DNA of 64,000 nucleotides, taken from Candidatus Peribacteria bacterium RIFOXYB1_FULL_54_35 (GTDB lineage: Bacteria; Patescibacteriota; Gracilibacteria; Peribacterales; Peribacteraceae). This document shows positions 9,288 to 42,989 of this stretch, one piece after another. The notes beneath the pieces are model-generated. The model did not search any database, was not told where the DNA came from, and saw nothing but the letters and a program-made list of their open reading frames with translations. Within the stretch, counting starts at the first letter, position 1, and each line of letters starts with the position of its first letter. A program made the position numbers and the translations under genes. The stretch covers positions 152,169 through 216,168 of the forward strand of contig MFYJ01000012.1 in the NCBI GenBank assembly GCA_001787755.1, written 5' to 3'.

Positions 9288-9373
9288 TTTGTGCGTATTG
9301 TAGCGTGTTCCTTGCAGTTGGCACCCATGGATTTCATCTTGTTCAGAAAGCGAAAAACGAGTACAATATTCTG

Positions 9374-9800
9374 ATTTGTCCAGAGTACTTCTTCAACAGA
9401 CACACTCTGAGCAAATCGCCTTTCCGCTCTCACACACAAACGAAGAACTGCCGCAACAATGTAGCGAGGAGGATGCGCATCCTTTCTCAAGTGCTCATGC
9501 TTCTCTCTGCTCTGTGATGTCGTGTTGTACATGGGAGGTTGCTGTACAACATGCCCATCCCTCTTCCCCAGTGTTCACTGACCGCGCTCATGGCGAAGTT
9601 TAAACGAACCGGTACGGGGACCTCGCCGGGTTGCGAGGAAAAACAAGAAACCTCAACAAGGCAGAGAGCCGAGGACACCTCTCCTCAGTCATTCTCCGTT
9701 ACACGGCTCAGCAGCGTCACTTTGTATCGTTGTTGATAGCCGAGGAGGATAGACAATACACATACAAAGAAGACCAGAGGTTATTTCTGGTCTTCTTTGT
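9374..9800 (+). ncRNA. candidate structured ncRNA, copy A of a two-copy family
   Basis: Promoter TTGTTC(9339)-17 bp-TACAAT(9362); multiple hairpins; strong terminator 9766-9798; shares ordered conserved blocks with 41986-42336 (-). Confidence 0.6.
9766..9798 (+). terminator. intrinsic terminator
   Basis: AAAGAAGACCAGA-ggttatt-TCTGGTCTTCTTT, 13-bp perfect stem. Confidence 0.8.
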
Positions 9801-9802
9801 TA

Positions 9803-9923
9803 TAGGAAAGAGAGTAAGAGGGAAGAGAATAAGAGGAATACAAAAAGCAGGAAAATCCTCAGGATTCCAAAGGTTCAAACCCTCTTATTCTCATACCTCT
9901 TATTCTCTTATCTCTTCTCTATA
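9803..9923. repeat. intergenic inverted repeat, AATAAGAG-type arms
   Basis: GAGAGTAAGAGGGAAGAGAATAAGAGGAATA...GGATTCCAAAGG...CCTCTTATTCTCATACCTCTTATTCTCTTATCTC. Confidence 0.8.
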
Positions 9924-19402: not shown

Positions 19403-19431
19403 TTGCCTGATAGTGGAAAAAGGTGTACATT
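19403..19431 (+). promoter_or_regulatory. sigma-70-like promoter for purP-like gene
   Basis: TTGCCT-17 bp-TACATT, 12 nt before ATG at 19444. Confidence 0.6.
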
Positions 19432-19443
19432 TGCTTAAATCCC

Positions 19444-20496
19444 ATGAGCAGGACCAAGCCCATTCTGCCGGCTTCCACTAACCCCCGTGACTTTGTCATC
19501 GCGACCCTCGGCAGCCACAGCGCGCTCCAGATCCTCAAAGGTGCGCAGGATGAGGGTATGAGGAGTCTTGTCATCTGCAAGAAGGGATCGGAGAAACCCT
19601 ATGAGAGTTTCGGCGTTGCCGATGAAATTCTCTCTGTGGATGACTGGACGGAATGGGACGAGAAGATCGAGGAAGAGCTCATCCGCCGCAATGCCATCAT
19701 CATTCCTCATGGTTCTTTCATCGCGTACATCGGGCATGATCGTGTGAAGGAGATGCAGGTGATGTACTACGGGACGAAAGAAATACTCCAGTGGGAATCC
19801 GACAGGAGAATGGAGAGGCAATGGCTGGAGAAGGCGGGGCTCAAGCTCCCCCGCGTCTTTGAGAGGCCGGAAGACATAGAGAAGCCGGTGATCGTGAAGT
19901 TCCACGGAGCAGGCGGAGGGTTTGGGTACTTCATTGCCAAAACGCCCGAACAGTTCTACGAGGTGAAGAACCGCAAGTACCCCAAAGAGAACGATTACGC
20001 CATCCAGGAGTACATCGTCGGCGTGCCGCTCTACGCGCACTACTTCTACTCGCCCCTCACGAAGGAGCTCGAACTTATGAGTTTCGACAAGCGGTACGAG
20101 AGCAATGCAGACTCCATCGGCCGTATCAAAGCAGAGGACCAGCTCGCGGCGAATATCCACACGAGTTACACCATTGTCGGGAACATCCCGCTGGTTGTGC
20201 GCGAGTCGCTCCTCCCGCAGTTCTTTGAGATGGGTGAACGTGTGGTGCAGGTGAGCAAGGATCTCTGTGGCAAAGGTTTGTTTGGTCCGTTCTGCCTCGA
20301 ATGCATTGTCACCAGGAAGCTGGAGATCTTTGTGTTTGAAATCAGCGCACGCATCGTCGCAGGCACCAATCCCTTCATAGAGGGATCGCCCTACACTGCA
20401 CTGAAGTACAAGGAACCCATGAGCACCGGCCGTCGCATTGCCAGGGATATTAAGCAAGCCATTACCCAGGGAAAACTTGAGCAGGTGTTGGGTTAG
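19444..20496 (+). CDS. PurP-like formate-dependent ATP-grasp ligase (FAICAR synthetase family)
   Basis: IATLGSHSALQILKGAQDEG; VKFHGAGGGFGYFIA; QEYIVGVPLYAHYFYSPLTKELELMSFDKRYESN; GKGLFGPFCLE; FEISARIVAGTNPF. Confidence 0.88.
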   Translation: MSRTKPILPASTNPRDFVIATLGSHSALQILKGAQDEGMRSLVICKKGSEKPYESFGVADEILSVDDWTEWDEKIEEELIRRNAIIIPHGSFIAYIGHDRVKEMQVMYYGTKEILQWESDRRMERQWLEKAGLKLPRVFERPEDIEKPVIVKFHGAGGGFGYFIAKTPEQFYEVKNRKYPKENDYAIQEYIVGVPLYAHYFYSPLTKELELMSFDKRYESNADSIGRIKAEDQLAANIHTSYTIVGNIPLVVRESLLPQFFEMGERVVQVSKDLCGKGLFGPFCLECIVTRKLEIFVFEISARIVAGTNPFIEGSPYTALKYKEPMSTGRRIARDIKQAITQGKLEQVLG

Positions 20497-20589
20497 CAAT
20501 GGCTATGGCCGGCAAGACGGCTGCGTCGCATTGCACGGGACATCAAGCAGGCGATAGAGCAAGGGAGGCTGGAGGAGGTGTTGGGTTAA
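20497..20589 (+). pseudogene. C-terminal remnant of a further PurP-like gene
   Basis: RLRRIARDIKQAIEQGRLEEVLG* directly after intact gene ending RRIARDIKQAITQGKLEQVLG*. Confidence 0.75.
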
Positions 20590-20616
20590 TCCGCAATCCG
20601 ATCTACACTACCCACC

Positions 20617-21753
20617 ATGGATACTTCCACACTCCTCGACGGCTATGATTTCCAGAACATCACCGTCGGGATGCTCGGGGGACACAGCGCACTCGATGTA
20701 GCCCATGGCGCGAAGAAATATGGGTTCAAAACTGTCTGCGTCGCGCGGGAGGGGCGCGAGAAAACATTCACCAAGTACTATAAGACGCGTGACGGGCGCG
20801 GGTGCATAGATGAAGTCATCGTCCGTCCGCGGTTTTCGGATGTGCTGAATCCGGACGTCCAGAAGCAACTGCGCGCGATGAATACCGTGTTCGTCCATAA
20901 CCGGTACTTCTGGGTGTACTTCGATGATTACTCCAAAATAGAGAATGATTTCAATGTTCCCATCTTCGGCTCACGCCATCTCGTGAAGGTGGAAGAGCGC
21001 GATCAGCCCTTCAACCAGTACCATCTCCTCCAGTTCGCGGGCATCCGCACGCCGCGCATCTTCGCATCTCCGGATGATATGGATGGCCGGCTCTGCATCA
21101 TCAAGGCCAGCGAAGCCCGCCGCGGGTATGAGCGCGCGTTCTTCCTTGCAGATAGCAAGTCCTCCTGGGAGAAGGAGGGGCGCCGTCTGGAGAAAGAGGG
21201 GCTTGTTGGCCCCGGCTGGCGGACTGCAACCATCGAAGAATTTGTGGTCGGTGCCCCGGTGAATTTCAACTTCTTCTACTCCCCGCTCACGGAAGAACTG
21301 GAACTGCTCGGCACAGATACCCGCAGGCAGACGAACCTGGATGGCTTCCTTAGGCTCGCAGCGTGGGAGCAGGAGAAAGTGCGCAAACACATCGATCTGA
21401 AGATGATTGAAACGGGGCATCTTGCCTGTACGGTCAAAGAGTCCATCCTTGAGAAGGCGTACGATCTCGGGGAGAGGTTCGTAGCAGAAACGAAGAAAAT
21501 TTCTCCGGAGGTCGATCCTGCCGGGAAAGGCATCATCGGACCGTTCGCACTCCAGGGCGCAGTGACAGCGGAAGAGGGGAAAGAGGACATTGTCATCTTT
21601 GACGTCTCGCTGCGCATCCCCGGCTCACCCGGCATCCGTGCCACGCCGTACTCGGGGTACCTCCACGGCGAATCGATGAGTGTTGGTGAGCGCATCGGGC
21701 TGGAGCTGAAGAACGCGGTTGCTGCGAATGCTCTGCATAAGGTTGTGACGTAA
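20617..21753 (+). CDS. PurP-like ATP-grasp ligase, second paralog
   Basis: VGMLGGHSALDVAHGAKKYGFKTVCVAREGRE; EEFVVGAPVNFNFFYSPLTEELELLGTDTRRQTN; GKGIIGPFALQGAV; FDVSLRIPGSPG. Confidence 0.88.
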   Translation: MDTSTLLDGYDFQNITVGMLGGHSALDVAHGAKKYGFKTVCVAREGREKTFTKYYKTRDGRGCIDEVIVRPRFSDVLNPDVQKQLRAMNTVFVHNRYFWVYFDDYSKIENDFNVPIFGSRHLVKVEERDQPFNQYHLLQFAGIRTPRIFASPDDMDGRLCIIKASEARRGYERAFFLADSKSSWEKEGRRLEKEGLVGPGWRTATIEEFVVGAPVNFNFFYSPLTEELELLGTDTRRQTNLDGFLRLAAWEQEKVRKHIDLKMIETGHLACTVKESILEKAYDLGERFVAETKKISPEVDPAGKGIIGPFALQGAVTAEEGKEDIVIFDVSLRIPGSPGIRATPYSGYLHGESMSVGERIGLELKNAVAANALHKVVT

Positions 21754-35029: not shown

Positions 35030-36037
35030 ATGTTTAGATTTATTGATCTCTTCGCAGGCATTGGTGGCATTCGCCTTGGGTTTGAACGGGATGGTGGTAA
35101 GTGCGTTTTTTCTTCGGAATGGGATAAGTATGCGTGTCAGACATATCAGATGAATTTCGGAGAAATGCCGAGAGGTGACATCAGAAAAATTGAAGCCAGC
35201 GATATCCCAGAGTTCGATGTGCTTTGTGCAGGTTTCCCGTGTCAGCCCTTTTCAATTGCGGGAGTTTCAAAGAAAAAGAGTCTCGGCAGGAAACATGGTT
35301 TTGATGATGAAGAGCAGGGAAATCTCTTTTTTGAGATTGTGCGTATTCTGAAATATCACAAGCCCCCGCTTGTTTTTCTTGAGAACGTTAAGAATCTTAT
35401 GTCCCATGATGGTGGTAATACATTCAGGGTTATTAGGAAATCACTTGAAGATTTAGGTTACTACGTCGATGCAGGTATTTTTGATGCTGCCCATTTTGTT
35501 CCTCAGCACAGAGAAAGAACTATTATTGTTGGGTGTCTGACTCACAGGGTCAATCTCCCGGGTACTTTGCCAAATCGTGGCATGAAAATGAAAGATATAC
35601 TTGAAAAGAAGATTGATACAAAATATACGCTTTCAGATAAGCTCTGGAATTATCTTCAGAATTACGCAAAAAAACACCGTGAAAAAGGCAATGGTTTCGG
35701 CTTTGGTCTGATCAGCACCAATGGAATAGCAAGAACTTTATCAGCTCGCTATTACAAGGACGGGAGCGAAATTTTGATACCTCAGAAAGGGAAAAACCCA
35801 CGACGTCTGACGCCTAGGGAATGCGCAAGGCTGCAGGGCTACCCTGACAGTTTTTTTATTCCTGTTTCAGATACACAGGCTTACAAACAATTCGGGAATT
35901 CGGTTTGCGTTCCTCTTATGAAGTTTATGGCAGAGCATGTTCTTAGGAAATCTTGGATTCTTCAGAGTACTTCTTCTGAGAAGGTTTATAGGCCTGCATT
36001 TCAAGTAAGTGATGTGCCGGATTTTGTTCCTGCATAA
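35030..36037 (+). CDS. C5-cytosine DNA methyltransferase (Dcm/M.EcoRII-like)
   Basis: FRFIDLFAGIGGIRLGFE; LCAGFPCQPFSIAG; ENVKNL; RLTPRECARLQGYPDSF; QFGNSVCVPLM. Confidence 0.97.
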   Translation: MFRFIDLFAGIGGIRLGFERDGGKCVFSSEWDKYACQTYQMNFGEMPRGDIRKIEASDIPEFDVLCAGFPCQPFSIAGVSKKKSLGRKHGFDDEEQGNLFFEIVRILKYHKPPLVFLENVKNLMSHDGGNTFRVIRKSLEDLGYYVDAGIFDAAHFVPQHRERTIIVGCLTHRVNLPGTLPNRGMKMKDILEKKIDTKYTLSDKLWNYLQNYAKKHREKGNGFGFGLISTNGIARTLSARYYKDGSEILIPQKGKNPRRLTPRECARLQGYPDSFFIPVSDTQAYKQFGNSVCVPLMKFMAEHVLRKSWILQSTSSEKVYRPAFQVSDVPDFVPA

Positions 36038-36054
36038 TTTTTTCATTTCTTACC

Positions 36055-37260
36055 ATGAAACAGGGTTATCTCTCTCAGCATTTTGAAGGAGTGGCTGCTA
36101 AACGGCTGAGTGCTGTTGAGTCCGATCCGGGAACATCGAATCAGCACGAACTGAATGGTGTCAGTGGACTGAAGAAAATATTTGGTGAGAGGAAAACCTC
36201 ATTCTCGACACGTTTTCTGTATTTTGAAGATGAGCAGGAGATAGTTGTGGCAGATGAAGGTACTGTTACATGGTATGACTCGCGTGAGAGCCATCCGACG
36301 AGATCGGAATTCAGACTCTATTTCTCATCGTCAGATGTATCTGCCAAATTTGCTGAAGGAGATCTTATTGTAATTGGCAAGAAGACTGACGGCAGTGTTC
36401 TTGTCGCGACTGCAAAAAGAAACAGTACCGCTGAAAAGCAGCTGATATGGCTCTTTGGCTTGTCTGATCAGGCACTGTTGAGGGGGGTTGAAATGCGCGA
36501 TTATGAAAAGAAAGATTCTGAACTCGATTATGCTGCGAAGTACATTCTTGAGGAACTGGGTATTGAGGCTGTGCAGCCAGCTGATAATTTACTTGGTGAA
36601 ATTCTGGCAAAATTTGGAGGTGTATTTCCTCCCACAAAAGATTTTTCAGCGTATGCCAGATCTATAGCTGAGGCTGTTCCGATTCGTGACGAGCCAGACA
36701 AGGCATTGATCACTTGGATCCAGAGGGAGGAGGAGCTTTTCAGGGCACTCGAAAGGCACATAGTGCGTGACAGAATATCTAAGGGTTTTGGTGCTGATGT
36801 TGATTCATTTATCAGTTTTTCCCTGAGTGTCCAGAATAGGAGGAAGGCGAGAATGGGCCAATCACTTGAAAATCATTTAGCTCACTTATTCACCGAGAGC
36901 GGTATTCGCTATTCCAAAAATAAGAACACAGAAGGGAAGAAGAAACCAGATTTCCTTTTTCCGGGAGTAGAACAATATCATGATCCGAAGTTTCCTGCAG
37001 AAAGTCTGACGATGCTCGGTGCAAAATCATCATGCAAGGAGCGGTGGAGGCAGGTTCTGTCTGAGGCTGGGAGGATCACAGAGAAACACCTCATAACACT
37101 TGAGCCAGGTATCAGTGTTGATCAGACAAAAGAAATGCAGGAAAGCAGTCTGCAGCTTGTGGTACCTGATTCTATCCACAAAACGTATTCTGACAGACAG
37201 AGAGACTGGCTTATGAGTGTAAAGGAATTCATCTCTTTCGTGCGCAAAAGGCAGTCATAG
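36055..37260 (+). CDS. EcoRII-like type II restriction endonuclease
   Basis: C-terminal KKPDFLFPGVEQYHDPKFPAESLTMLGAKSSCKERWRQVLSEAGRITEKHLITLEPGIS matches EcoRII-C style motif; adjacent to methylase. Confidence 0.85.
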   Translation: MKQGYLSQHFEGVAAKRLSAVESDPGTSNQHELNGVSGLKKIFGERKTSFSTRFLYFEDEQEIVVADEGTVTWYDSRESHPTRSEFRLYFSSSDVSAKFAEGDLIVIGKKTDGSVLVATAKRNSTAEKQLIWLFGLSDQALLRGVEMRDYEKKDSELDYAAKYILEELGIEAVQPADNLLGEILAKFGGVFPPTKDFSAYARSIAEAVPIRDEPDKALITWIQREEELFRALERHIVRDRISKGFGADVDSFISFSLSVQNRRKARMGQSLENHLAHLFTESGIRYSKNKNTEGKKKPDFLFPGVEQYHDPKFPAESLTMLGAKSSCKERWRQVLSEAGRITEKHLITLEPGISVDQTKEMQESSLQLVVPDSIHKTYSDRQRDWLMSVKEFISFVRKRQS

Positions 37261-41946: not shown

Positions 41947-41985
41947 TTGCGTTTACTATTCACCGGGGAATCATCATCATCTTTT

Positions 41986-42336
41986 ACAAAAAGACCGGAC
42001 GAGTCCGGCCTGTTTGTCTTGGTGTCTTCGAGGCTACCAAAGTGCGTAGTGGCACAGAGAGCCTGCGGAGAGGATGAGGGGAGGAGCCCTCGTTCCTTCT
42101 GCCCTGCTTCGGTCGCTTGTTTCTCCTCGTGACCGGGCGAGGTTTCCTTGGCGGCCCTTTGAAACTGCGCAGTGCGCAGAGGGCCAGGAAAGAAAGATGG
42201 TGCATTCCACCGAGCATCCTCGGCATCGGTGGGACGGCGTTGCAGAGCTCAGAACCAGTCGCTTGCTCCGGTTCGGAGCAAGCAGAGAGGATGATGACCA
42301 CGTAGAGCAATCACGTTGCCTGTGCTCAGAGTATGT
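41986..42336 (-). ncRNA. candidate structured ncRNA, copy B
   Basis: Blocks shared with 9374-9800 in same order; hairpin CCACCGA-tgccgaggatgc-TCGGTGG; terminator at 41988-42012. Confidence 0.6.
41988..42012 (-). terminator. intrinsic terminator
   Basis: Minus strand GGCCGGACTCGTCCGGTCTTTTT. Confidence 0.8.
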
Positions 42337-42535
42337 ACATAAATGTAGATATGTGTGGCTGAGAGGAACGAGTGCATCCGCCTTTGCCCGCGTTTCGCGG
42401 GGCTACGGCAGATAAACATGATCATCACTCTCTCTGCTTAAGTTTCGGTGGTGGAAGGAACGGGAGAGGGGGGGGGTGTCTCCGGGGCCACAGGGCCCCG
42501 GAAACTGTTTGTTTTTGTGTAACCCTCCGAAAGCA

Positions 42536-42793
42536 TTGAGGCTGACCTGTCGGCCGAAGCCGTGGTAGTCCGTCGTCAGAGCGAGGGAAGAGAAGGATCG
42601 GGGGTGTCCTCTCTGATAGAGGGCGAAGGCTGACTCGTCGGCCGTAGTCGTCATTGTTCGGAGTCAGCACAGGAAGGTTCGGGGGTGTCCTCTCTGATAG
42701 AGGGCGAAGGCTGACTCGTCGGCCGTAGTCGTCATTGTTCGGAGTCAGCACAGGAAGGTTCGAGGGCGCCCTCTCTATAGAGGGCGAAGGCTG
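42536..42793. repeat. 81-bp tandem repeat array, about 3 copies, each with two hairpins
   Basis: Units beginning ~42595, 42676 and 42757 (GGWTCGRGGGYGYCCTCTCT...AGAGGGCGAAGGCTGA); preceding degenerate unit. Confidence 0.9.
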
Positions 42794-42989
42794 ATGGCGT
42801 CGATTTGTTTTTCACAAATCGGAGAATCATATAGTGCTACAATTTTTAAGCAACTTTCTCGTCTGGCGCTTCTGTAAAATCATTTTGTGGATACATTTTT
42901 TGTTCGAGGTCTGCCTCTCCGTACAGTGGTTCCAACTCTTCAATTCATGCAAAATACGTGGTATAATACCATATGTATACAAAGCCTTT

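Follow-up and report, generated by a model that had tools for sequence, protein, structure and literature searches.

A pseudoknotted non-coding RNA without an Rfam match, predicted in paralogous copies in a class of small-genome bacteria

Two loci in the window (the whole 64-kb stretch of bacterial DNA analysed here), copies A and B, are with a probability of about 97% paralogous genes of one non-coding structured RNA with a pseudoknotted core, whose independent transcription is predicted from the conservation of its promoter, start and terminator. The RNA is vertically inherited, near-universal in the source family (f1) and widespread in its class, and has no match in Rfam. A and B are two of three paralogs of this free-standing gene in the source genome; the third lies on another contig (G000:C13:118585-118772).

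Direct reading of copy A on the + strand located the promoter that a first-pass annotation of this DNA had pointed out, with TTGTTC at 9339-9344 followed after 17 bases by TACAAT at 9362-9367, and, at 9765-9799, the terminator hairpin CAAAGAAGACCAG..CTGGTCTTCTTTG. The sequence blocks that the annotation had listed as common to A (+) and B (-) are all present and in order, and the compensating change that it had noticed in the first hairpin is exactly as quoted: P2 reads GTTGTACA-tgggaggttgc-TGTACAAC in copy A (9524-9550) and CCACCGA-tgccgaggatgc-TCGGTGG in copy B (42232-42207). The sibling it had placed at 42 kb is also there, but extends further than the described 5' end near 42.3 kb. We place the 5' end of copy B at about 42820, where the conserved promoter and a GATTTG start are found; the predicted transcript is therefore about 836 nt long and takes in an 81-bp tandem repeat (42592-42794), each unit of which could pair GAGUCAGC with GCUGACUC. 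P1 of B-type copies is a long helix, GCAGAGAG.../...CUCUCUGC.

A single covariance model, R1, built from 42 seed sequences of f1, fits both copies: it matches copy A at 9503-9691 with 170.8 bits and copy B at 42254-42071 with 134.6 bits (both are among its seeds), and it reaches 178 bits in non-seed relatives. Folding z-scores were -5.66 for copy A and -11.38 for copy B. A tree of f1 cores did not cleanly split copies at the A position from those at the B position (best split 67%).

Table 1. Predicted features of copies A and B, in window coordinates
Feature	Position	Strand	Basis
Copy A promoter	9339-9367	+	-35 TTGTTC, -10 TACAAT; same box layout common across homologous loci
Copy A RNA gene, ~430 nt, GATTTG start	9373-9805	+	Conserved start motif; R1 match; folding z
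Copy A 5' hairpin, closed by GAUUUG/CAAAUC	9373-9417	+	MFE fold; GAUUUG..CAAAUC start recurs in relatives
Copy A P1 hairpin, 3' end CUCUCUGC	9460-9510	+	MFE fold
Copy A conserved core; closing helix CUCUGC-UC-UG / CA-AG-GCAGAG, 3' strand 9654-9666	9505-9666	+	Pairing counts
Copy A P2 hairpin; loop GAGGU (9535-9539), one side of PK2	9524-9550	+	Many compensatory changes
Copy A P3 stem-loop; outer helix UUCCCC...CGGGGA, inner GUUC/GAAC	9564-9620	+	Outer helix 98.5% and inner 81.4% paired in f1
Copy A P4 hairpin; loop GGUU (9629-9632) with AACC (9649-9652), forming PK1	9621-9638	+	PK1 97.6% paired in f1
Copy A P5 hairpin; loop ACCUC (9677-9681), second side of PK2	9671-9686	+	Double changes at all 5 stem pairs in f1
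Copy A P6 hairpin with conserved CUCAG...UGAUAG	9704-9742	+	Motif counts over 131 loci
Copy A intrinsic terminator	9765-9805	+	Direct reading; terminator counts over 131 loci
Copy B promoter, TTGCTT (42853-42848) and TATGAT (42831-42826)	42826-42853	-	Direct reading; conserved motif
Copy B RNA gene, ~836 nt; GATTTG start 42820, terminator 42011-41987	41985-42820	-	Start motif, promoter, terminator, R1 match
Copy B structured tandem repeat, 81 bp x 2.5 copies, in variable 5' domain	42592-42794	-	Within predicted transcript
Copy B P1, a long helix of GCAGAGAGAGUGAUGAUCAUG (42437-42417) and CGUGGUCAUCAUCCUCUCUGC (42302-42282)	42282-42437	-	Direct reading; MFE fold
Copy B conserved core; P2 42232-42207, P4 42142-42125, PK1 GGUC/GACC, P5 42091-42076	42071-42254	-	R1 match; direct reading

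As predicted from these sequences, the RNA runs from a 5' hairpin through P1, the core and P6 to the terminator. Within the core, a helix would close P2, P3 and P4, and two contacts would clamp it: a pseudoknot (PK1) between the P4 loop and the strand preceding the closing helix, and a kissing contact (PK2) between the loops of P2 and P5. We scored this structure at 47 pairs, including both pseudoknots, in 42 f1 sequences against 500 shuffles. In these counts, which are inflated by the kinship of the sequences and use structures partly derived from them, 89.8% of cells were paired compared with 80.3% after shuffling, and 30 of 47 pairs carried changes on both sides compared with 17.9; no shuffle reached the observed values, and sliding the structure reduced pairing to 43–52%. 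Under the same inflation, 21 sequences from other families showed 86.3% of cells paired (31–41% when slid) and both-sided changes in 19 of 30 pairs, which again 0 of 500 shuffles matched. Pairing has been kept despite divergence in f1 and beyond, as the first-pass annotation had proposed from the two copies. The closing helix is paired at 92.8% in f1 and 91.0% in the other families, and nucleotides of the core are near-invariant.

Both long-range contacts co-vary. PK1 carries both-sided changes in three of its four pairs in f1, where it takes the forms GGUC/GACC or GGUU/AACC; it appears as UUGGC/GCCAA in family f28 and in related forms elsewhere. PK2 is 82.6% paired in f1, as GAGGU/ACCUC or GAGGA/UCCUC, and outside f1 it reads UGACCAA/UUGGUCA with the covarying variants UGACUAA/UUAGUCA and AGACC/GGUCU. 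Support for PK2 outside f1 is moderate, with 81% of cells paired in a column-wise count compared with 75% in shuffles. An ungapped comparison of own and other complementarity over long segments, in which the loop motifs are common to most sequences, gave observed means that were reached by 982 of 2000 permutations in f1 and 243 of 2000 in the other families.

Two conserved loop-loop or pseudoknot contacts around a near-invariant core are also what an RNA-only machine could display, its core being catalytic or the molecule forming homo-oligomers through loop-loop contacts in the manner of GOLLD, ROOL or OLE, perhaps with PK2 acting between molecules. Ornate RNAs of similar length assemble into homo-oligomers, according to one report (PMC12286853). 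We consider such a machine unlikely, given that the RNA resembles no Rfam ribozyme or ornate RNA and that the PK2 partners lie near each other in one molecule, where pairing in cis is simpler.

A match to a known family had been set beforehand as the test against a new structured RNA. Scanning the whole window with cmscan against Rfam 15 returned three tRNAs only at gathering score, 15 loci from distant relatives likewise returned only tRNAs, and a relaxed search of copies A and B gave chance-level matches only. No SRP family matched in the window, and the OLE, GOLLD and ROOL models had no match at gathering score in the window or the 15 distant loci. The first-pass annotation was right to set aside RNase P RNA and tmRNA, because the source genome has a separate gene for each: the RF00010 match sits on another contig (G000:C11:169490-169976, 123 bits), the RF00023 match at G000:C13:51890-52299 (100.6 bits), and ARAGORN found no tmRNA here. 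The 6S model, RF00013, gave sub-threshold matches only, none of them at these loci. One such candidate, G000:C11:109339-109493 (30 bits, and up to 41 bits in relatives), is possibly a diverged 6S RNA of these bacteria. No account of an RNA of this kind in these bacteria emerged from our search of open-access papers; relative to both Rfam 15 and the searchable open-access papers, the family is new.

Several known RNAs nonetheless offer points of comparison. Like OLE, GOLLD and ROOL, the new RNA is long, free-standing and structured, with conserved unpaired nucleotides, loop-loop contacts and a poorly known function; its lineage and architecture differ from theirs, and the likeness to ornate large RNAs is in general style only. 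It shares with RNase P RNA a pseudoknotted form and similar length, but occurs in two or three copies, and with tmRNA a wealth of pseudoknots in a molecule that in tmRNA measures 350–400 nt. 6S RNA, which has two copies in some bacteria, is a regulatory RNA that is likewise free-standing, but it takes the form of a rod-like hairpin about 185 nt long.

Homologs, whose absence would have counted against a functional RNA, are abundant in the source family and in further families of the class. R1 matched 71 of 74 family genomes, mostly with one or two and usually with two copies each, and 56 of the 57 of good quality; most family members searched with copy B by blastn matched as well. One 100% complete f1 genome, G029, has no copy by R1 or by R2; the RNA may therefore be not strictly essential, or it may have diverged in this genome or lie in an assembly gap. 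In two other families R1 gave weak matches, and reading those sequences revealed the same architecture. Iterated models built from them, R2 and R3, matched over a dozen additional families in the class, including families that contributed no R3 seed (f16, E 1e-13; f9, down to 6e-13; f24, 2e-10). Two copies again occur often in f22, f28 and f29. An exact-pattern scan of the class matched f28 alone, its pattern being too strict. Across 384 genomes of the phylum, searched with strict filters that could miss more distant relatives, matches were confined to the class except for three near-chance matches in two genomes; those in f57 and f90, with E about 1e-3 over the 384 genomes, we take as chance. 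The homologs, the compensatory changes and the lack of an Rfam match together support the first-pass reading of a functional structured RNA.

The presence of several copies per genome could suggest a mobile or phage-borne element such as an intron, retron or array. Chromosomal positions are conserved, however, and the RNA was not found in phage or plasmid records; two exact motif matches in viral contigs fall within genes for phage proteins, lack the core and are put down to chance. We regard a mobile origin as largely excluded. In family f18, a distance of only 2.7 kb separates two copies of the RNA on one strand (G097:C2:49485-52371; G106:C1:90545-93446).

Among the 131 loci with enough flanking sequence, 89 carry TTG-N18-23-TANNNT-N3-7-GATTTG/GAAACG (0 of 131 after shuffling). 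An intrinsic terminator is present at 116 of them (2 after shuffling), and the P6 motif follows downstream at 57 (1 after shuffling). Predicted transcripts are about 360–840 nt long (364–835 nt, median 538). All three sense frames contain stops at 123 of 137 loci, over about 400 nt, and ACAAA linkers are 4.6-fold over-represented in a strand-specific manner. The terminator, the unpaired A-rich stretches and the free-standing gene would suit an antisense sRNA that pairs with mRNAs. That role is very improbable: Hfq (PF17209) is absent from 40 of 40 genomes in which control profiles were detected, and we dropped an Hfq-binding role for the linkers on that account; pairing and core are what is conserved, with no obvious long seed, and the length is far above that of usual sRNAs. 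A regulatory decoy that sequesters a protein in the manner of 6S or CsrB, with paralogs tuned to different conditions, agrees with a probably strongly transcribed, free-standing RNA that has two or three diverged copies, many hairpins and, in one copy, the 81-bp repeat array. We still think this improbable, as the pseudoknotted core is kept across families, unlike that of simple decoys, and the sub-threshold 6S candidate of the genome (G000:C11:109339) is elsewhere.

We tentatively propose a housekeeping role for the RNA: it would be abundant and, working in trans, would scaffold a ribonucleoprotein. A strong constitutive promoter would yield the RNA in quantity; the functional centre would be the rigid pseudoknotted core, which would bind either itself or a conserved protein; and spacing of the remaining hairpins may fall to the A-rich ACAAA linkers together with the variable 5' domain. 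Its action would follow the model of OLE, SRP or 6S RNA, not that of an mRNA-pairing sRNA. A housekeeping scaffold would not usually be present as two or three diverged copies in a genome, and G029, a complete genome, lacks a match. We nevertheless lean slightly towards the structured RNA gene and its scaffold role, taken as a whole, as the best explanation. The near-universal presence of the RNA in a family with reduced genomes points to an important role, and it is probably a basic cellular RNA of these bacteria that has so far gone unrecognised. The chances seem to us about even that it represents a class of large pseudoknotted RNA that had escaped recognition, one that dates back to the ancestor of an entire bacterial class with small genomes, is often present in at least two diverged copies per cell, and has a basic function, as scaffold or catalyst, without counterpart in studied bacteria. 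To our knowledge, RNA classes of such size and spread are rarely found; RNase P RNA, tmRNA, 6S RNA and OLE proved to be basic machinery or remain puzzles. The pseudoknots are defined, the start site is predicted and three covariance models exist, which makes the RNA directly testable.

The genomic setting bears on whether the RNA could instead regulate a neighbouring gene in cis, as a leader or riboswitch. In f1 the copies do keep a fixed position beside the same genes: A-type copies are flanked by a SecF/trigger-factor cluster on one side and a TPR gene on the other in 46 genomes, and B-type copies have a TraG-like ATPase as neighbour in 34 genomes and glyA in 20. A check of downstream neighbours found them mostly on the opposite strand, and because flanking genes are mostly opposite in direction and differ between families, we conclude that the RNA is not the leader of a gene; it also has its own terminator, and a leader role is, like a mobile one, largely excluded. 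In several genera (G000, G015, G021, G030, G033, G079, G081), the two copies are convergent, with 26–33 kb between them. Elsewhere in the window, a C5-cytosine methylase beside an EcoRII-C restriction enzyme (35030-37260) forms a restriction-modification pair, and 19423-21753 holds a tandem pair of paralogs carrying DUF1246/DUF1297 (PurP-like ATP-grasp) domains.
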